Shown here: positions 2,612 to 28,424 of the stretch, in pieces
How the letters are laid out: each line of letters starts with the position of its first letter
Position numbering within the stretch: position 1 is the stretch's first letter
DNA from: Actinomycetes bacterium
GTDB taxonomy: Bacteria > Actinomycetota > Acidimicrobiia > Acidimicrobiales > RAAP-2
Assembly (NCBI GenBank): GCA_021810205.1
Contig: JAJZJC010000003.1
Span: forward strand, 1 to 62,178
Length of the DNA: 62,178 nucleotides
Reading direction: 5' to 3'
Notes under the pieces: generated by a model
The model's input: only the letters and a program-made list of their open reading frames with translations
The model's database searches: none
What the model was told of the DNA's origin: nothing
Position numbers and translations under genes: made by a program

Positions 2612-3070
2612 TCAAGCGGAACGATCGTGCTGGCCTGTGCGGTCGTGGTAGACGACGACGGGGCAGTGCGCGTGGCCAACGCAGTGTTTGCTGACCGAGC
2701 CGAGCAGCATGCCTGCCAGCTGGCGGTGGCCGCGCGAGCCGATCACGAGTAGGGCGGCGCCGCGTGACACGTCGACGAGCCGGGCGGCCGCGCTCCCTTC
2801 CAAAGCGGTGCCTTCGACGTCGATCGAGGGATTGAGCGCCCGCGCCCGGGCTACCCCCTCGTCGACGAGGCGCTGTGCGTCGTCCTGTGGCTGGTAACCC
2901 TCGGGTAACGGCATCGCCCAGCCGTAGCTGGTCGGCCATTCCCAGGCGACGACGACGCGGAGCTTTGCGTCGCTGCGGACGCACTCCGCCACCGCCCAGG
3001 CCAGGGCCCCGAACGAGGACGTCGAGCCATCCACCCCGACGACCACGACATCGTGCTCGTGCTCGCTCAT
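2612..3070 (-). CDS. Universal stress protein, single UspA domain (DosR-regulon type)
   Basis: 152 aa from ATG 3070, preceded by AGGAGGT at good spacing. The ORF track extends to 3211, but that extension lacks Usp similarity and would cover the operator-like site. N-terminal VVVVGVDGSTSSFGALAWAVAECVR and C-terminal VIGSRGHRQLAGMLLGSVSKHC are diagnostic, and the second carries the ATP loop. A DosR-like inverted repeat lies about 75-90 bp upstream, and the sensor kinase gene ends just beyond it. In mycobacteria single- and double-domain Usp proteins are among the most strongly DosR-induced genes, so hypoxia or nitric-oxide control is the likely reading. Confidence 0.9.
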   Translation of the reverse strand: MSEHEHDVVVVGVDGSTSSFGALAWAVAECVRSDAKLRVVVAWEWPTSYGWAMPLPEGYQPQDDAQRLVDEGVARARALNPSIDVEGTALEGSAAARLVDVSRGAALLVIGSRGHRQLAGMLLGSVSKHCVGHAHCPVVVYHDRTGQHDRSA

Positions 3071-3143
3071 GTCGGACCTCCTGCACCGTGCGCCCTGGCA
3101 CTCGGTGCGGGCTGACCGTACGAGGTCGCTGGGGCAAGGAGTA

Positions 3144-3158
3144 GGGACCTTCGGCTCC
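3144..3158. promoter_or_regulatory. DosR/DevR-like operator upstream of the universal stress gene
   Basis: GGGACCTTCGGCTCC. It resembles the DosR box (consensus core GGGACTWWAGTCCC, with natural variants of the type GGGACCTTCGGCCCT). It lies in the 121-bp gap between the kinase stop (3192) and the stress-protein start (3070). The match was made by eye; no matrix score was computed. Confidence 0.55.
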
Positions 3159-3191
3159 TTGCCACCGACGGCTGGCCCCCCGGCACACGGG

Positions 3192-4334
3192 TCAGGGGGG
3201 GAGCGGGACACGCCAGGTCAACGTGGTTCCCTTCCCGCCGGGAGACGAGACGACGAGGTCGCCCCCGAGCCTCTCCGCTCGACGCCGGATGTTCTGCATC
3301 CCGAGCCCGCCGCCGCTCGTGCGGCGGCTCGAACCAGTGATGCCTCGGCCGTCGTCGGTCACCACGAGCGTGCAGGTGTCCTCGGCCACCGACAGCTTCA
3401 CCGACGCACGGGTGGCCCGCGCATGCCGACCGATGTTCGTGAGGGACTCACGGACGGTGAAGAGGACATGGGCTGCCATGTCGCTCGGGATCTCGGTGTC
3501 CACGGGGCCCTCGAAAGTGACCGACGGGTCGAATCCGACGACGGCTCGGAGCTCTCGCACGAGCGCGAGGACGCTCGCCCGGAGGCTGCGGCGCCCCGAC
3601 TCCGCCGCCAGCTCGAAGATCGAGGACCGGATCTGGCGGATGGTCTCGTCGATGTCGGCGATGGCCTGTCCGAGCCGCTCCACCGTCTCGGAGGCCAAGG
3701 GCGGGCGCGCGAGGCTCTGCAGCGAGAGGCCGACCGCGAAGAGCCGTTGGATCACTGCATCGTGCAGGTCCCTGGCGATGCGGTCTCGGTCCTCGAGCAG
3801 CGCCACCTCTTGAACCCGCAGGTGGAGGCGCGCGCTGGCGATCACCACGCCGGCGGCATGGGCGAACGCCAGGACGAGGTTCTCGTCGTCCTTCGTGAAC
3901 TCCGAGCACCCGACTTTCTCGGTGAGGTAGAGGTTGCCGTAGACCTCGTCACGCGCCACCACGGGTACTCCCAGGAACGAGGACATGTGCGGATGTCCTT
4001 CAGGGAATCCAGCGCTGTGTGGATGCGTGGAGATGTCCGCGATCCGCAGTGGTTTCGGGTCCGTGATGAGGAGCCCAAGGACGCCCAATCCGGTGGGCCG
4101 GTGCGCGATCGCCCGCTCTTGTTCTTCGGTGATCCCGACGGTGATGAATTCGGAGAGCGCCGTTCGGTTGTCGTTCAGCACCCCGAGTGCGCCGTAGCGG
4201 GCGTTCGTCATCGAGCACGCCTCCTCGACGAAGTGACGTAGGAGCACTGGGAGACTGAGGTCGGCTTCGAGCAGGAGGACCGCATCGAGCAGGCGTCGCA
4301 GCGTCGCGGGATCGTCGATGTGCCGATACGGCAT
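3192..4334 (-). CDS. DosS/DevS-like GAF sensor histidine kinase
   Basis: 380 aa from ATG 4334 (MPYRHIDD). A single GAF domain spans about 30-170, with ARYGALGVL and SSFLGVPVVARDEVYGNLYLTEK as in mycobacterial DosS. The HisKA_3 dimerisation helix follows with phospho-acceptor His191 (RDLHDAVIQRLFAVG). A C-terminal HATPase domain has the N box (Asn300) and DDGRGI. Mycobacterial DosS and DosT have two GAF domains; here there is one. In the stretch GFPEGHPHM, His114 aligns by eye with the heme-ligand histidine of the DosS GAF-A domain, so heme-based O2/redox sensing is plausible but inferred. The probable partner is the response regulator at 5031-5705, on the same strand but separated by an opposite-strand gene. 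The ORF-track extension to 4661 is unconserved. Confidence 0.9.
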   Translation of the reverse strand: MPYRHIDDPATLRRLLDAVLLLEADLSLPVLLRHFVEEACSMTNARYGALGVLNDNRTALSEFITVGITEEQERAIAHRPTGLGVLGLLITDPKPLRIADISTHPHSAGFPEGHPHMSSFLGVPVVARDEVYGNLYLTEKVGCSEFTKDDENLVLAFAHAAGVVIASARLHLRVQEVALLEDRDRIARDLHDAVIQRLFAVGLSLQSLARPPLASETVERLGQAIADIDETIRQIRSSIFELAAESGRRSLRASVLALVRELRAVVGFDPSVTFEGPVDTEIPSDMAAHVLFTVRESLTNIGRHARATRASVKLSVAEDTCTLVVTDDGRGITGSSRRTSGGGLGMQNIRRRAERLGGDLVVSSPGGKGTTLTWRVPLPP

Positions 4335-4428
4335 GCGGGAAAAGGTAGCGCCCTCGCTACGGGTGCTGCGCATGCACGGGTGGCAACCGAGACGCCGTCG
4401 AGCGCACCGAAGGGTCGCTAGCCGGTGC

Positions 4429-4445
4429 CGCAGATGACATCTGCG
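4429..4445. promoter_or_regulatory. Perfect 17-bp inverted repeat between the kinase gene and the hypothetical gene
   Basis: CGCAGATGACATCTGCG: two 8-bp arms around one central base, an operator-like geometry. It lies in the roughly 320-bp gene-free gap between the divergent kinase start (4334) and the 4654 gene. The rest of that gap holds a 6-bp hairpin (GTAGCG/CGCTAC, 4345-4360) in the kinase leader and no convincing DosR box. The binding protein is unknown. Confidence 0.4.
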
Positions 4446-4653
4446 CGACCGCGCCATGTGACGGAGGACTCTGTTTCCCGGCTCTCGAAAGGACTGACAG
4501 TGGGCGCAGCGGACTCCTCGAGCACCGAGCTCGTCGAGCATGGCACGGGGCGATAGCGAGCGCGTCGAGCAGCCGGACCGTCGGAAGCCGGCGGTCGGCT
4601 CGGGGGAAAGTAGGCGCAGTGGCGGAATCCAGCTCCACGCGAGGCTGAAGACG

Positions 4654-5055
4654 GTGTCCATCTACAGCGATCTCCTCGAGGCTTCCTGGCGGACGCAGGA
4701 GGGCGCCGACGATGGGGGAGCGAGGCGGCGCGCCGACGCGCACGAGCTGCATCGCCTCCTCGACGAGGCGATCGAGCGGCGGCGAGACTGCGAAGGGCAC
4801 ACTCGCGCCTTCGACGGACGGTTCGGCGTCACGGTGGACGCGCCGTCAGACCTCGCCAGGCAGCTCGCCTACGACCTCGCGTTGATGCGGCTGTGCGCGG
4901 CGCACGGGATCGTCTGCGACGTCCGCCGCTTCACACGGCCGATTCCCGAGCGCACGCGTCTGGAAGAAGCGCTCGAGCGCAAGGGCGTCGTGCTGCGCGA
5001 CCGGCGACGCGAGCGCTCGGGATCGACTGACTACGCGCTCCCTGAAGGGTCGTAG
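4654..5055 (+). CDS. Conserved-looking hypothetical protein between sensor and regulator genes
   Basis: I do not recognise a named family. From GTG 4654 the product is about 133 aa, helical and charged: SIYSDLLEASWRTQ, then AHELHRLLDEAIERRRDC, then DLARQLAYDLALMRLCAAHGI. It ends in a basic tail. The frame is open from 4540, but the earlier residues look non-coding. The gene lies antisense to its neighbours, between the DosS-like kinase and the DosR-like regulator, and its end overlaps the regulator's end by 25 bp (convergent). The all-helical character and position suggest a small accessory or partner protein of the two-component system; this is inference only. Confidence 0.55.
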   Translation: MSIYSDLLEASWRTQEGADDGGARRRADAHELHRLLDEAIERRRDCEGHTRAFDGRFGVTVDAPSDLARQLAYDLALMRLCAAHGIVCDVRRFTRPIPERTRLEEALERKGVVLRDRRRERSGSTDYALPEGS

Positions 5056-5705
5056 CGGCCCTCGACGGACTTGCGCTCCGCGAGCCTCGTGGCGAACACA
5101 GCGGCTTCGGTCCGGCGCTGCATCCCCAGCTTCGCCAGGAGATTGGAGACGTAGTTCTTCACCGTCTTCTCGGCCAAGTAGAGCTCCTCGCCGATCTGGC
5201 GATTGGTCTTCCCCTCTGCAATACCGTCGAGGATCTTTCGCTCTTGCGCGGTGAGGGCCGCGAGACGCTCGTCTTCGTGTGGTCCGCGCCGAAGGCGTTC
5301 CAGCACTCGCTCGGTAAGCCTGTGGTCCAAGAGCGATCCGCCGCTCCCGACCTTCTTGACGTCGGCAACGAGGTCGCTGCCGCTCACCTGCTTGAGGACA
5401 TAGCCGGCGGCACCGGCCATCACTGCGGCGAGCAGCGCCTCGTCGTCCGCGTACGACGTCAACATGAGGCATGCGATGTCGGGGTGCTCGGACCGGATGT
5501 CCCGGCACACCTCGATACCGGTGCCGTCCGGCAGCCGCACGTCGAGGATCGCCACGTCGGGCTTGGCGAGCGGGATGCGGACGAGGGCATCGTGGACGGT
5601 ACCGGCCTCGCCGACGACTTCGAGGTCTTCATCGGTCTCGAGGAGGGACCGCAGGCCCGTGCGAACGACTTCGTGGTCGTCGAGCAGGAAGACCCTGAGC
5701 GTCAT
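5031..5705 (-). CDS. DosR/DevR-like NarL-family response regulator
   Basis: 224 aa from ATG 5705. The receiver domain has the acidic pair DDHEVVRTGL, phospho-acceptor Asp55 in ILDVRLPDG, a conserved Thr/Ser in LTSYADDEA and Lys in GYVLKQ. The LuxR-type helix-turn-helix at the C-terminus reads LTAQERKILDGIAEGKTNRQIGEELYLAEKTVKNYVSNLLAKLGMQRRTEAAVFA, nearly the same wording as mycobacterial DosR, including the TVKNYV recognition helix. That supports both orthology of function and the use of DosR-type operators, several of which are present nearby. The ORF-track extension upstream to 5828 is not needed. The DosR-like box at 5854-5870 lies about 150 bp upstream of its start and could mediate autoregulation. 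Confidence 0.93.
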   Translation of the reverse strand: MTLRVFLLDDHEVVRTGLRSLLETDEDLEVVGEAGTVHDALVRIPLAKPDVAILDVRLPDGTGIEVCRDIRSEHPDIACLMLTSYADDEALLAAVMAGAAGYVLKQVSGSDLVADVKKVGSGGSLLDHRLTERVLERLRRGPHEDERLAALTAQERKILDGIAEGKTNRQIGEELYLAEKTVKNYVSNLLAKLGMQRRTEAAVFATRLAERKSVEGRYDPSGSA

Positions 5706-5853
5706 GGTGCAAGTCTGCCACGGTGCCACCCGCGATGAGCGCGTCTTGTGTGGGCGCCGTCGATACCCTCGCGGCCGCGCTCCCGGTCGGGGTCGCCAGC
5801 CGTGCTCGCAGGGCTCGCGTCGGTGCATCGTGGGGTCACAGCAGTCGCAGGCG

Positions 5854-5870
5854 GGGGACCTTTGCCCCTA
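5854..5870. promoter_or_regulatory. DosR/DevR-like operator between the regulator and sigma-factor genes
   Basis: GGGGACCTTTGCCCCTA. It has the GGGAC...CCC spacing and TTT centre of known DosR boxes. It is 90-106 bp upstream of the sigma-factor ATG (5960) and about 150 bp upstream of the divergent regulator ATG (5705), so it could serve either gene. Confidence 0.55.
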
Positions 5871-5959
5871 TCGATCGCAGGGGTCGTGCGCTGTACTTGC
5901 TCTGGGGCGGCCGACGCGGGTGCCGCCTATGCGGTGGAGGGGGGCCCTGGAGGTAGGAC

Positions 5960-6916
5960 ATGGCGCGGCCCATGGGTATGGCGGAAGACGAGGAAGCCGG
6001 CAAGGCGCATGGGGAGGCAGTCCCCGAGCTCGATCTCGTCCGTCTCTACCTCGACGAATTGGGCTCGCACGCGCTGCTCGATCGAGACGATGAGGTGCGA
6101 CTCGCACAGCTGATCGACGCGGGCCACGTGGCCGAGCGGGCGCTGTCGGCGGGGACCGGCCTCACGCGCGCCGAGCGCCGAGCCCTTGAAGCGGCGGTCC
6201 ATGCGGGCCGGGCGGCGCGCGCGGAGTTCATCCGGGCGAACCTCCGTCTCGTCGTCTCGATCGCCAAGCACTACCAGTTCCACGGTGTCGAGCTCGCCGA
6301 CCTCCTCCAAGAGGGAAACCTTGGCCTCATGCGCGCGATCGAACGGTTCGACTGGCGCCGAGGCTTCAAGTTCTCGACCTACGCGACCTGGTGGATACGA
6401 AAGGCAGTGGTGCAGGCGATCAGCGACATGTCGTCGACGGTGCGCATGCCGCGGAACCGGCGTGACCAGGCTCGCCAGATCACCGAGGCGACCGAGCGGC
6501 TGGAGCGGAGCACCGGCCACCTTCCAGGAACAGGTGAGATCGCCAGGGAGACGGGCATGCATCCTTCGGAGGTCGCGTCCATCCGTCGAGCGTCGGCACG
6601 GGTGGTCTCCCTCTCGGCGCCGGTCGACGAAGACGGCAACGAGCTGGTCGACCTCGTGGCGGATCCCCATGGTGACGTCGCTGAAGTGGCTGAGCGCTCG
6701 GTCGTCGCGACGGAGGTCGAACGGCTCTTGGGGCACCTCTCCCCATCGTCAGCGAACGTCCTTCGTCTTCGCTACGGCCTGGATCCGGGTGGCCGACAGC
6801 GGACCGCGGCGGAGGTCGGTGCGATGCTTTCGATCTCTGCCGAGCGGGTACGCCAGATCGAGGGCAGGGCGCTCACGCGCCTGCGTCAGCGGCTCCCGCG
6901 CGATCTGGCATCCTGA
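5960..6916 (+). CDS. RNA polymerase sigma-70 factor, primary-like (group 2)
   Basis: 318 aa from ATG 5960 with GGAGGT just upstream. Region 1.2 is DLVRLYLDELGSHALL. Region 2 is complete: [54 protein letters not shown]. Region 3 follows (ARQITEATERL... P.. EIARETGM), then region 4.2 (EVGAMLSISAERVRQIEGRALTRLR). The short N-terminus without a long region 1.1 argues for an alternative group 2 factor rather than the housekeeping RpoD. It is adjacent to the DosR-like regulator with a DosR-like box in its promoter region, which suggests that the two-component system may switch on a sigma factor. Confidence 0.92.
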   Translation: MARPMGMAEDEEAGKAHGEAVPELDLVRLYLDELGSHALLDRDDEVRLAQLIDAGHVAERALSAGTGLTRAERRALEAAVHAGRAARAEFIRANLRLVVSIAKHYQFHGVELADLLQEGNLGLMRAIERFDWRRGFKFSTYATWWIRKAVVQAISDMSSTVRMPRNRRDQARQITEATERLERSTGHLPGTGEIARETGMHPSEVASIRRASARVVSLSAPVDEDGNELVDLVADPHGDVAEVAERSVVATEVERLLGHLSPSSANVLRLRYGLDPGGRQRTAAEVGAMLSISAERVRQIEGRALTRLRQRLPRDLAS

Positions 6917-7047
6917 GCGCGCCGTCGTCGCGTCGAGCGGTCTCGTCGTTTCGGGTTCCCTCACGCACGCGCTCGAAGCGCGCGCACACCACATGCGCGG
7001 AGGCGCCGTGCGCTCGCGCTCATCGACACTGGTAGCGACGTCAGATC

Positions 7048-7061
7048 GGGACCTTCGGTCC
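7048..7061. promoter_or_regulatory. DosR/DevR-like operator, distal copy, upstream of the 7168 gene
   Basis: GGGACCTTCGGTCC, an inverted repeat (GGACC-TTC-GGTCC). Of the four boxes in the window it has the cleanest symmetry. It is about 107-120 bp upstream of the membrane-protein ATG. Confidence 0.6.
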
Positions 7062-7069
7062 AGCCTGGG

Positions 7070-7085
7070 GTGACCTCCGGCCCTG
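7070..7085. promoter_or_regulatory. DosR/DevR-like operator, proximal copy, upstream of the 7168 gene
   Basis: GTGACCTCCGGCCCTG, a weaker variant of the same motif. It begins 22 bp (two helical turns) after the distal copy, a spacing suited to cooperative binding of two dimers on one DNA face. Tandem boxes are typical of the most strongly induced DosR targets. Confidence 0.45.
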
Positions 7086-7167
7086 CGCTCGTGCTCGTGA
7101 AGGTGCGCACCCTATAGAAGGAAAGTCCCACGCGGCGGCGTAGGAACGATTGACAAGGGAGCACATC

Positions 7168-7758
7168 ATGAAGCGCAAGACGTTCGACCTGATCTTCACG
7201 GTAGGCGGTGCCGCATTGGTGGTGATACTCGTCGTCGCGGGCGCGCTGTTGTTGGTGGGGGCGAACTACACCAACACCAACGTTCACGACCAGCTCGCCC
7301 GTCAAGAGATCTTCTTCCCGACGACCAAGCAGATCAACACACCGAAGGGCGAGGACTACATCTCGAGGAACGTCCAGCTTCCCTATGCCGGTCAGCAGGT
7401 GCTCACCGGTACACAGGCCAAGGCGTATGCCTACAAGGTGCAGATGGACATGTACCCGATGCCCTTCCACGGCGTCTACTCGAAGGTCTCCGCCTTCTCG
7501 AGGGCGCACCCGACAACAAAGAAGATGGCGGCTCTCGTGACAGTGTCCTTCCGAGGGACGACCCTCCAGGGGCTCCTGCTCGAGGCGTACGCCTTCTCGC
7601 AGTTCGGCACGATCGCTACTGACGGCGCAATCGCCGCCTTCTCTTTGGCGTTCCTCATGCTGGTGCTGACCGGGCTCGGTCTGTGGCACACCCGCCGGGT
7701 CGACGTGTCCGAGGAGTTCCCGAAGTCGCTCGTCGAGGTCACGTCGAAGGCCGCCTGA
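7168..7758 (+). CDS. Two-TM membrane protein of unknown function, probable DosR-type target
   Basis: 196 aa from ATG 7168 (AAGGGAG 6 nt upstream; the ORF-track start at 7150 has none). One membrane helix near the N-terminus (residues 12-33, TVGGAALVVILVVAGALLLVG) and one near the C-terminus (about 152-174, GAIAAFSLAFLMLVLTGLGLW) flank an outward-facing domain of about 115 aa with VHDQLARQEIFFPT and YAGQQVLTGTQAKAYAYKVQ. No cysteines or cofactor motifs are visible. I do not recognise a characterised family. Codon use and GC match its neighbours but the protein is richer in Lys, Thr and Tyr. Two DosR-like boxes upstream and a strong hairpin terminator downstream make it a single-gene transcription unit. 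Confidence 0.75.
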   Translation: MKRKTFDLIFTVGGAALVVILVVAGALLLVGANYTNTNVHDQLARQEIFFPTTKQINTPKGEDYISRNVQLPYAGQQVLTGTQAKAYAYKVQMDMYPMPFHGVYSKVSAFSRAHPTTKKMAALVTVSFRGTTLQGLLLEAYAFSQFGTIATDGAIAAFSLAFLMLVLTGLGLWHTRRVDVSEEFPKSLVEVTSKAA

Positions 7759-7780: not shown

Positions 7781-7820
7781 CAACGCCCTCCCGTCCGGGT
7801 TGCCCGGCGGGAGGGCGTTG
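7781..7820 (+). terminator. Strong hairpin, probable terminator of the 7168 gene
   Basis: Perfect 13-bp arms CAACGCCCTCCCG and CGGGAGGGCGTTG with a 14-nt loop, 22 bp after the stop codon. No U-tract is obvious, which is common in high-GC actinobacteria. It could also stop transcription coming from the right. Confidence 0.75.
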
Positions 7821-8363: not shown

Positions 8364-8473
8364 GCCTCGTCCGTTCCTGGAGACTCGGATCTTCTCTACC
8401 CGGGTTCTCGGGACGCGCTCCGGGCGCCGGCATGGATGGCGCGCGATGCGCCGACACCGGTAGACAGGGGCGG

Positions 8474-8995
8474 ATGCCGCGGAGACGAACCGTCGAGCAA
8501 CTGGTGTTCCGTCCTGATGCCTCGGAGCCGGTCCTCGAGTGGATGGACTGCCTGACCCGGGCGCGCGACGGCTGGATCAACCTCCTGCCGGGCGTGCCTG
8601 AAACGGAGGTCGAGGAGACGGGCGGCGGAGTCTTCTCGGCGCTCTTCGGCACTGCGCAGCCGCCGGTCAGCATGTGCACCTGGATGCCGGCACGCACCCA
8701 GGAGTCGGGCACCGGCGAGGAGACGGTGGGGATCATGCACCCAAAGAGCGGTCGGGCCGCGCCCCAGCTGGCCGCCGCTGGCGTGGCTGTGCCGTCGTCG
8801 TGGCGGGTGCGCCAGGACCACGTGCGACGTGGCCTGATCGCGCACCCGCTCCCCGGCGCACCGCACCGCGAGACCCTTTCGTGGATGCTGCGGGCGGGCG
8901 CGGCACTGGCGATGGTGCCGCTGACCGGCTCTTGGCAGGCGGCGATCTACATTCCACGGGCCATGGGCGCCAGTGACGCGGACGCCCGCAGCTAG
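8474..8995 (+). CDS. Hypothetical protein
   Basis: About 173 aa from ATG 8474 (MPRRRTVEQLVFRP), with a weak AGGGGCGG in front. I recognise no named domain. The C-terminal half (PQLAAAGVAVPSSWRVRQDHVRRGLIAHPLPGAPHRETLSWMLRAGAALAMVPLTGSWQAAIY) has the even, family-like composition of a real protein, and it contains three dispersed Trp-containing blocks. No signal peptide or clear transmembrane helix. It is convergent with the heme-oxygenase-like gene; the 14-bp triple repeat lies between them. Function unknown. Confidence 0.55.
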   Translation: MPRRRTVEQLVFRPDASEPVLEWMDCLTRARDGWINLLPGVPETEVEETGGGVFSALFGTAQPPVSMCTWMPARTQESGTGEETVGIMHPKSGRAAPQLAAAGVAVPSSWRVRQDHVRRGLIAHPLPGAPHRETLSWMLRAGAALAMVPLTGSWQAAIYIPRAMGASDADARS

Positions 8996-26174: not shown

Positions 26175-27155
26175 TCAGCGACGACTTGCGAGGGTGAGCA
26201 GGAACTCGCCGTCCTCGGCGCCCCACTGGTTCTCGACGGAGAACCGTGCGTCATCGAGCTCCGCGGCAAGACCCTCGGGCGTGAACTTCGCGCTGATCTC
26301 GGTGAGGAGCTCCTCTCCAGCGTCGAACTCCACCGTCATGTCCAGTGCCTCGACGTGGACGCGCTGCGAGCCGATTGCCCGGAGCCGCATCTCGATCCAC
26401 TGCGCGTGCTCGTTCCACTGGGCCACGTGGGCGAAGTGCTCGGGCACGAAGTTCGCGTCGAGCGAGCGGTTCATCACTCGCAGCACGTTCCGGTTGAATT
26501 CCGCGGTGACCCCGGCACTGTCGTCGTAGGCGGCGACGATGCGTCGAGGGTCCTTCACCAGGTCGGCCCCCACGAGGGCGTGGTCGCCCGGTGCCAACGT
26601 CGCGCGCAACGCCTGGAAGAACCGCGCGCGCTGCGTAGGCACGAGATTGCCGATCGTCCCTCCCAAGAACGCGACCAGACGCGTGCCAGTGGTCGGGATC
26701 CGGTCGAGATGGCGGAGGAAGTCACCGATGACCGCGTGGATGTGCAGACCGTCGTACTCACTTGCGAGTGACGCTGCTGCGTCCTCCAAGAATTCCGCGC
26801 TGACGTCGAAGGGAACGTACCGGCGGAGGGTGCCCAGCTCTTTCATGGCGTCGAGCAGGATCCGCGTCTTCTCGCACGATCCGGCACCGAGCTCGACGAG
26901 GGTGTCGGCACCGGCCAGTGATGCGATCTCGACCGCGTGGGCCTCGAGGAGCGCGCGTTCGGTCCGGGTGGGGTAGTACTCGGGCAGCTTGGTGATCTCC
27001 TCGAAGAGCCTGCTGCCCTCCTCGTCGTAGAACCACGTCGGGGGGATCGCTTTGGGTCGGCGGCACAGCCCGTCGCGCACGTCGTGCTCGAGCGCGGCGC
27101 GCATGTCGTCGTCGCGGAGGTGGACGTCGACGGTGATCGCAGAGAGCGCGGGCAC
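26175..27155 (-). CDS. egtD: L-histidine N-alpha-methyltransferase (ergothioneine biosynthesis)
   Basis: 326 aa from GTG 27155. The sequence is a full-length EgtD: AIPPTWFYDEEGSRLFEEITKLPEYYPTRTE, SAM site VELGAGSCEKTRILLDA, YVPFDVSAEFL, FLGGTIGNL, LVGADLVKD and the histidine-binding Tyr/Asn region AYDDSAGVTAEFNRNVLRVMN. It trimethylates histidine to hercynine with three SAM. It lies 3 bp after egtB on the same strand. No egtA, egtC or egtE is nearby. The 132 bp between its end and the importer fusion contain only a poor plus-strand ORF, which I do not count as a gene. Confidence 0.94.
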   Translation of the reverse strand: MPALSAITVDVHLRDDDMRAALEHDVRDGLCRRPKAIPPTWFYDEEGSRLFEEITKLPEYYPTRTERALLEAHAVEIASLAGADTLVELGAGSCEKTRILLDAMKELGTLRRYVPFDVSAEFLEDAAASLASEYDGLHIHAVIGDFLRHLDRIPTTGTRLVAFLGGTIGNLVPTQRARFFQALRATLAPGDHALVGADLVKDPRRIVAAYDDSAGVTAEFNRNVLRVMNRSLDANFVPEHFAHVAQWNEHAQWIEMRLRAIGSQRVHVEALDMTVEFDAGEELLTEISAKFTPEGLAAELDDARFSVENQWGAEDGEFLLTLASRR

Positions 27156-27158
27156 CGC

Positions 27159-28424
27159 CTAGAGGTCCCGGGCGAGCCGCAGGCCCGCGAACACCCAGCG
27201 AGCGGAGGCGGGGAAGAAGTTCCGGTAAGTGAGGCGGGAGTGGGCCGGCGGCGTGATGCACGCGCTCCCGCGTAGAACTTGCTGGTTCACCATGAACTTG
27301 CCGTTGTACTCGCCGACCGCGCCGGGGGCGGTGCGGAACCCCGGGTACGGGCTGTAGCTGCTCGACGTCCATTGCCACACCGCGCCGAAGAGCTGGGCCC
27401 CGGCGGTGGCATCTGGGTGGAGCGCGTGCTGCTCGGGCGCGAGATCCTCACGACTGCGATGTATGCCCGCGGCGAACGTCTCCCATTCGGCCTCAGTGGG
27501 GAGCCGTGCTCCGCTCCAGCGGGCGAAGGCGTCGGCCTCGAAGTAGCTGACGTGGACGACGGGAGCCGCCGGATCGACCGGGCGGCGCCCGAAGAGGGTG
27601 AAGACGCCGGTGTCGTCCCAGTACAGCGGAGCGTGCCAGCCCTGTGCCTGCGCGCTCGCCCAACCTTCGGAGAGCCAGAGCTCGGGACGTTGGTACCCGC
27701 CGTCCTCGATGAATTCCTGCCAGTCTCCGCAGGTGACGAGTCGGTCGCCGATCGCGTGCGGGACCAGCTGGACGACGTGACGCGGCGACTCGTTGTCGAA
27801 CGAGAAGCCACCTCCTCGGTGGCCGATCTCGACGGGACCCCCGGGATGCTCGACCCACTGGGGCTTCTCGGGGTCCGGGGATGCCACGCACGCCGCCGTG
27901 CTGGCGTACGCAGGCTCCAGGGGACTGCGCGACAGCACGTGCTTGATGTCCATGAGCAACAGCTCTTGATGCTGCTGCTCATGGTTGAGCCCGAGCTCGA
28001 CGAGGTCGAGGGACTCGGGGCTGAGCGCCTGGTCGAGAAGCTGGGCCATCGCCGCGTCGACGTGGCGGCGGTACTCGGCGACCTCGATCGTCCCGGGCCG
28101 GGAGACGAGGCCCCGTTCCGCTCGCGGGTACCGGTCCCCGGCGGCCTCATAGTACGAGTTGAAGATGTACGCGTATGCGGGGTGCGCCACGCGGTAGCCC
28201 GCCAGCTCGGGGCGAAGCAAGAAGGTCTCGAAGAACCAAGACGTGTGGCCGCGGTGCCACTTCGTCGGGCTCACGTCAGGCATCGACTGGACGGTCTGGT
28301 CCTCGGGGGAGAGGGGCGCGGCGAGCTGCTCGGTGAAGGAGCGCACCGACTCGTAGGCGGCGCGCAACGCGCGCTGACGCCGATCGGCCGATGTCGGGTG
28401 CGACTCTGTGACGGATCGGACCAC
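27159..28424 (-). CDS. egtB: Hercynine oxygenase / sulfoxide synthase (ergothioneine biosynthesis)
   Basis: 421 aa from GTG 28424 (GAAGGG upstream). N-terminal DinB-like iron domain: WHRGHTSWFFETF and later LNHEQQHQELLLMDIKH, giving the three-histidine iron facial site. C-terminal formylglycine-synthase-like domain: RLPTEAEWETFA, GAVWQWTSSSYSPYPGF, QQVLRGSACITPPAHSRLTYRNFFPASARWVFAGLRLARD. It couples hercynine to a thiol using O2. The NFF after TYR replaces the NWD found in mycobacterial EgtB, whose Asp helps hold gamma-glutamylcysteine. This suggests a cysteine-using type, in keeping with the lack of egtA and egtC nearby (inference). Confidence 0.93.
   Translation of the reverse strand: MVRSVTESHPTSADRRQRALRAAYESVRSFTEQLAAPLSPEDQTVQSMPDVSPTKWHRGHTSWFFETFLLRPELAGYRVAHPAYAYIFNSYYEAAGDRYPRAERGLVSRPGTIEVAEYRRHVDAAMAQLLDQALSPESLDLVELGLNHEQQHQELLLMDIKHVLSRSPLEPAYASTAACVASPDPEKPQWVEHPGGPVEIGHRGGGFSFDNESPRHVVQLVPHAIGDRLVTCGDWQEFIEDGGYQRPELWLSEGWASAQAQGWHAPLYWDDTGVFTLFGRRPVDPAAPVVHVSYFEADAFARWSGARLPTEAEWETFAAGIHRSREDLAPEQHALHPDATAGAQLFGAVWQWTSSSYSPYPGFRTAPGAVGEYNGKFMVNQQVLRGSACITPPAHSRLTYRNFFPASARWVFAGLRLARDL

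Follow-up and report, generated by a model that had tools for sequence, protein, structure and literature searches.

The window, by which we mean the whole 62 kb stretch of DNA that was analysed, is part of an actinobacterial assembly of 3.0 Mb with a completeness of about 72%. It encodes an ortholog of the response regulator DevR (DosR) and a histidine kinase, along with a universal stress protein, a sigma factor and a small membrane protein. The features of the locus are as follows.

2612-3067, minus strand: gene for a universal stress protein with its own predicted DevR box, identified by family search and site ranking
3143-3158, minus strand: predicted DevR box before the universal stress protein gene, rank 3 in the window
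3192-4661, minus strand: gene for a histidine kinase whose single haem GAF domain is of the DosS/DosT type and matches GAF-A of these proteins
5031-5705, minus strand: gene for the DevR/DosR ortholog, a response regulator (best solved relative M. tuberculosis DevR, 3c3w, E 2.6e-75)
5854-5869, no strand assigned: predicted DevR box in the intergenic region from which devR and the sigma-factor gene diverge, rank 5 in the window
5960-6916, plus strand: gene for a sigma-70 factor of the SigB type, immediately upstream of the membrane protein gene
7048-7061 (16-mer 7047-7062), plus strand: distal predicted DevR box GGGACCTTCGGTCC, centre at about -65 relative to the predicted start of transcription
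7070-7083 (16-mer 7069-7084), plus strand: proximal predicted DevR box GTGACCTCCGGCCC, centred about -43 and abutting the -35 region
7108-7113, plus strand: predicted -10 element CACCCT, with A 7109 and T 7113 at conserved offsets
7155-7161, plus strand: ribosome-binding site AAGGGAG, identified from the sequence
7168-7758, plus strand: gene for a two-helix membrane protein of 196 aa, unnamed family
7781-7820, plus strand: 18-bp hairpin 3' of the membrane protein gene, terminator-like, with no T tract

The core of the recognition helix (AEKTVKNYVS) is identical in M. tuberculosis DevR and in the window regulator, the gene for which lies 2.1 kb away from the membrane protein gene. DosS and DosT have two GAF domains. 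The window kinase has one (residues 134-282), followed by HisKA_3 at residue 292, and a second GAF (GAF-B) was not found in it; thus, it is not a standard DosS. Residues His223, Tyr245 and Gly160 of the kinase ORF align with His149, Tyr171 and Glu87 of DosS. In DosS the haem ligand is His149 and the distal residue is Tyr171, and DosT has Gly85 (PMC4082495). The proximal His and distal Tyr of GAF-A are therefore present (His223 and Tyr245), and Gly160 sits where DosT has Gly85, so that the kinase resembles DosT rather than DosS at this position. Haem binding is predicted from these residues. A single DosT-like haem GAF directly before HisKA_3 could represent a minimal oxygen sensor.

Clustering of conserved neighbours returned only a set comprising DevR/DevS, universal stress protein, acetyltransferase, AcuC and sigma-factor genes, together with local synteny. 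At 188-2160, genes for a Pat-like acetyltransferase and an AcuC-like deacetylase overlap end to start beside two universal stress protein genes, which suggests reversible acetylation tied to a dormancy locus. A small ORF without a family (4540-5055) lies opposite the gap between the kinase and regulator genes; 11 loci (the window included), some of them distant (L047, L065, L089, L090), keep it next to the two-component genes. The ORF at 8432-8995 (real start probably about 8474) has no Pfam family; close relatives (L031-L033, L035-L037, L039 and L061) retain it on the same strand, 3' of the membrane protein gene. Judged by eye, genes at 26175-28424 resemble egtD and egtB (ergothioneine synthesis); the box-like strings that they contain at 26646 and 27683 are probably due to chance.

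The first-pass annotation described two DosR-like boxes 22 bp apart upstream of the 7168 gene and called them the only tandem pair in the window. Both boxes are located as described (7048-7061 and 7070-7083), with a start-to-start spacing of 22 bp, and each is one mismatch from GGGNCNNNNGNCCC. The pair is also the only one in the window in which both sites score at least 6 at a spacing of 20-24, and in that sense it is unique. However, consensus strings with one mismatch occur 96 times in the 62 kb window, with 117 expected. Single boxes are thus no more frequent than chance in GC-rich DNA, and we rejected the single box as evidence. The tandem string pattern (up to two mismatches) occurs five times in the whole assembly, compared with three times for a reversed control pattern, so a plain genome-wide string search is too permissive and useful only for detecting clustering near devR. 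Given how often the strings turn up singly, and that the tandem pattern recurs in the assembly, the boxes have to be assessed by comparison. A matrix from which the close relatives (clade) of the window were left out places five of the eight best sites of the 62 kb window at 3143-7084, and ranks the two boxes of the 7168 gene sixth and seventh.

A search of species genomes recovered 422 relatives of the membrane protein, from which 80 loci were retained. Sites were scored in the 250 bp before 80 genes (the window gene and 79 homologs with enough upstream DNA) using a matrix built from published OsdR sites of Streptomyces coelicolor (PMC5069765), and thus independent of the window. These regions contain 85 sites, compared with 20.7 in dinucleotide shuffles. 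Pairs at exactly 22 bp occur before 15 of the 80 genes, with 0.03 expected from the shuffles; elsewhere in the same loci, such a pair is present in only 4 of 4655 windows. Many of the 15 pair-bearing genes are from related genera, and so do not represent 15 independent events, although the set includes proteins that are only about 50% identical. About half of the homologs, including those of AT-richer genomes and of Acidimicrobium (L012), have no recognisable box. Among the nearest relatives (L031-L033), the block of boxes stands out within a poorly conserved upstream region. The evidence beyond chance is comparative, and lies in the conservation of the boxes rather than in the box strings themselves. 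Assignment of the boxes as DosR/DevR-type operators is thus backed by their conservation, by the adjacent DevR ortholog with its identical recognition-helix core, and by the haem-GAF kinase.

Relatives with names include many Acidimicrobiaceae or Acidimicrobiales and also Dormibacterota bins, although labels of metagenome bins may be wrong; the family may extend beyond a single phylum. A homolog with 34% identity, annotated as hypothetical, is found outside the Actinomycetota on Deinococcus ficus plasmid pDFI1 (L141, 8001-8549), with no DevR genes among the neighbouring features listed. No relative was found in the viral contigs searched.

We surveyed 198 genomes of the order, calling a DevR ortholog at E<=1e-50. 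The membrane protein gene is present in 61, of which 58 also carry a DevR ortholog, compared with 50 of the 137 genomes without it (Fisher p 3e-16, not corrected for phylogeny). The two genes are at most 10 kb apart in 20 genomes. A pattern search across the order returned 40 tandem 22-bp pairs, nine of which lie within 6 kb of devR, where about 0.14 would be expected. In Kribbella (L109), the homolog is near genes for Hsp20 and a PNPOx-type protein, and it is the Hsp20 gene that has a tandem 22-bp pair. Since such pairs are found near devR and at the Hsp20 gene in relatives, the 22-bp pair is best read as a general form of the predicted DevR operator in these genomes, not as a mark of the membrane protein gene. 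The suggestion in the first-pass annotation that such a pair marks the most strongly induced targets, and that the protein may be a main effector of the locus, therefore goes further than the pair supports. A further tandem 22-bp pair in the window's own genome (G000:C16:33962-33997; L199, about 1501-1536) is at the start of a gene for a cupredoxin-like protein, beside a nickel superoxide dismutase.

Alignment of 49 homologous promoters on the proximal box identified a conserved pattern (A at offset 24, T at 28) in 27 promoters, and the same A...T pattern one base earlier occurs 21 times (the 99.9th percentile of shuffles is 8). The canonical TANNNT -10 was not conserved in these promoters; the looser A...T pattern was. 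The predicted -10 of the window is weak and non-canonical. It implies centres near -43 and -65 for the two GGGAC-type palindromic boxes, which puts the proximal one at the -35 region. Since a -10-like element follows the proximal box at a constant distance, the box, -35 region and predicted -10 form a single conserved promoter. Mycobacterial DevR targets have closely packed sites, the proximal of which overlaps the -35, and some require cooperative binding at two sites for full induction (PMC3029386). The layout of the window promoter fits this description by analogy. At the other end of the gene, a strong private terminator had been proposed. The hairpin is real and far more stable than shuffled sequences (z -4.9), but it was not called in a scan for consensus terminators because it has no T tract; it is thus a putative terminator.

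The M. tuberculosis DevRS/DosRST system shares with the window the regulator ortholog and its recognition helix, the haem-GAF residues of the kinase and GGGAC-type palindromic boxes; also alike are the tandem sites, bound cooperatively in mycobacteria, of which the proximal lies at -35 (PMC3029386), and universal stress proteins as targets. OsdKR of S. coelicolor has the same box and universal stress proteins around the regulator, and the window's box differs little from the OsdR box AGGGACCTTCGGCCCC of SCO0167 and narG2 (PMC5069765). The published table of OsdKR targets has no entry recognisable as the unnamed membrane family (PMC5069765).

We consider DevR control of the membrane protein gene highly likely, based on comparative sequence evidence. 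It is unlikely that the gene is instead driven mainly by read-through from the sigma factor gene, or by the SigB-type factor itself, with the DevR boxes acting through it. The two genes are on the same strand, separated by a 251 bp gap in which no T-tract terminator was found on this strand, and this leaves room for read-through. In addition, boxes precede the sigma gene itself in the relatives L032, L035, L036 and L037, and the predicted -10 of the membrane protein gene is non-canonical. However, most pair-bearing homologs have no sigma gene nearby, yet retain the boxes and the -10.

A real operator that serves a different NarL/LuxR-type regulator of similar specificity, responding to a signal other than oxygen, is quite improbable. 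Regulators of the NarL family are numerous in these genomes (a preliminary count reaches 113 candidates in one of them), and three genomes with the membrane protein gene lack a DevR match at the survey threshold. Against this reading are the adjacent ortholog with the recognition-helix core of DevR, the DosT-like haem GAF of its partner kinase, and the joint occurrence of the two genes in 58 of 61 genomes. Still less probable is that the boxes are chance palindromes of GC-rich DNA before a gene that is constitutive or under another regulator: although the counts of single and tandem strings given above would allow it, the exact 22-bp spacing and the -10 offset are conserved in distant homologs, and the pairs are enriched near devR.

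For the product of the gene, the first-pass annotation had proposed two membrane helices, an external part of about 115 aa and no known family. Searches of Pfam, NCBIfam and PHROGs identified no family that applies to it, and hydropathy and a structural model agree with the proposed topology. Two hydrophobic segments are present in 80 of 81 homologs, and basic ends suggest that both termini are inside. The model (pLDDT 91) shows helices at residues 3-46 and 118-177 and a small head, which is all-helical. Arg3, Asp7 and His174 are invariant and lie near the inner membrane face. Sequence and fold searches of the PDB with the whole protein and with the head found no match, and thus no solved relative.

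Proteins of the Rv1733c family are regulated by DosR in M. tuberculosis. That the window protein is a DosR-regulon membrane protein of this type is hardly credible: the topology (two helices and an external domain of about 110 aa) and the regulon are the same and the NCBIfam Rv1733c model (NF050032) touches one of 81 homologs (E 0.0043), but the model cut-off was not reached, profile-profile comparison with 16 real family members gave a probability of 3% over 12 columns, and the head of the window protein is modelled as all-helical. We therefore rejected membership.

The head has some likeness to the F1-ATPase inhibitor zeta subunit (PF07345), which 39 of 74 heads match at E<=0.1. The likeness is confined to a 44-residue helical-hairpin stretch (residues about 70-113, window 7375-7506), over which the profile score against zeta is 28, compared with at most 15.8 in column-shuffled controls. 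However, the Pfam cut-off of 25 bits was not reached (at most 15.8 bits among ten homologs listed), the window protein itself has no PF07345 match, and a fold search of the PDB with the head model (pLDDT 80) found no zeta structure. The head also differs from zeta in that it lacks the inhibitory N-terminus and is on the opposite side of the membrane. Membership in the zeta ATPase-inhibitor family was rejected on these grounds, and the weak local similarity is left as a lead.

Overall, we think it likely that 7048-7083 serves as operator in a promoter activated by DevR (DosR), with a membrane protein as its proposed hypoxic product. We infer gas sensing, phosphotransfer, activation and a hypoxic role as follows. 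Low oxygen (probably also NO or CO) would be sensed by the single-GAF haem kinase, as its conserved haem residues suggest, and the kinase would phosphorylate the DevR ortholog. Two DevR dimers would occupy adjacent sites separated by two helical turns, and the proximal dimer, abutting the -35, would bring RNA polymerase to the predicted -10 at 7108-7113. The product would be a membrane protein encoded in single copy, with its N and C termini inside and two long helices that bear the small external helical head, and this stalk-and-head protein would act under low oxygen. Sequence and fold searches gave no indication of its biochemical role; a non-enzymatic envelope or membrane-partner protein in low-oxygen dormancy is a tentative guess.

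A broader reading is that this single-copy family is a core effector of the DevR regulon outside mycobacteria, with a fixed two-box/-35/-10 promoter in Acidimicrobiales and other lineages and a head that shares descent with the helical hairpin of the zeta inhibitor. Taken as a whole, we regard this combination as rather doubtful. The membrane family is not known from the mycobacterial DevR regulon.

The results carry the oxygen-shortage circuit of DevR, which was characterised in mycobacteria and a single Streptomyces, over to actinobacteria that are largely uncultured, and would supply an exact promoter rule (a 22-bp pair with a -10 at +24). They also single out as a target one conserved membrane protein that mycobacterial studies did not bring up. 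Since the pair and its spacing are retained by relatives in many genomes, this protein is very probably a widespread, unstudied part of the response to oxygen shortage.
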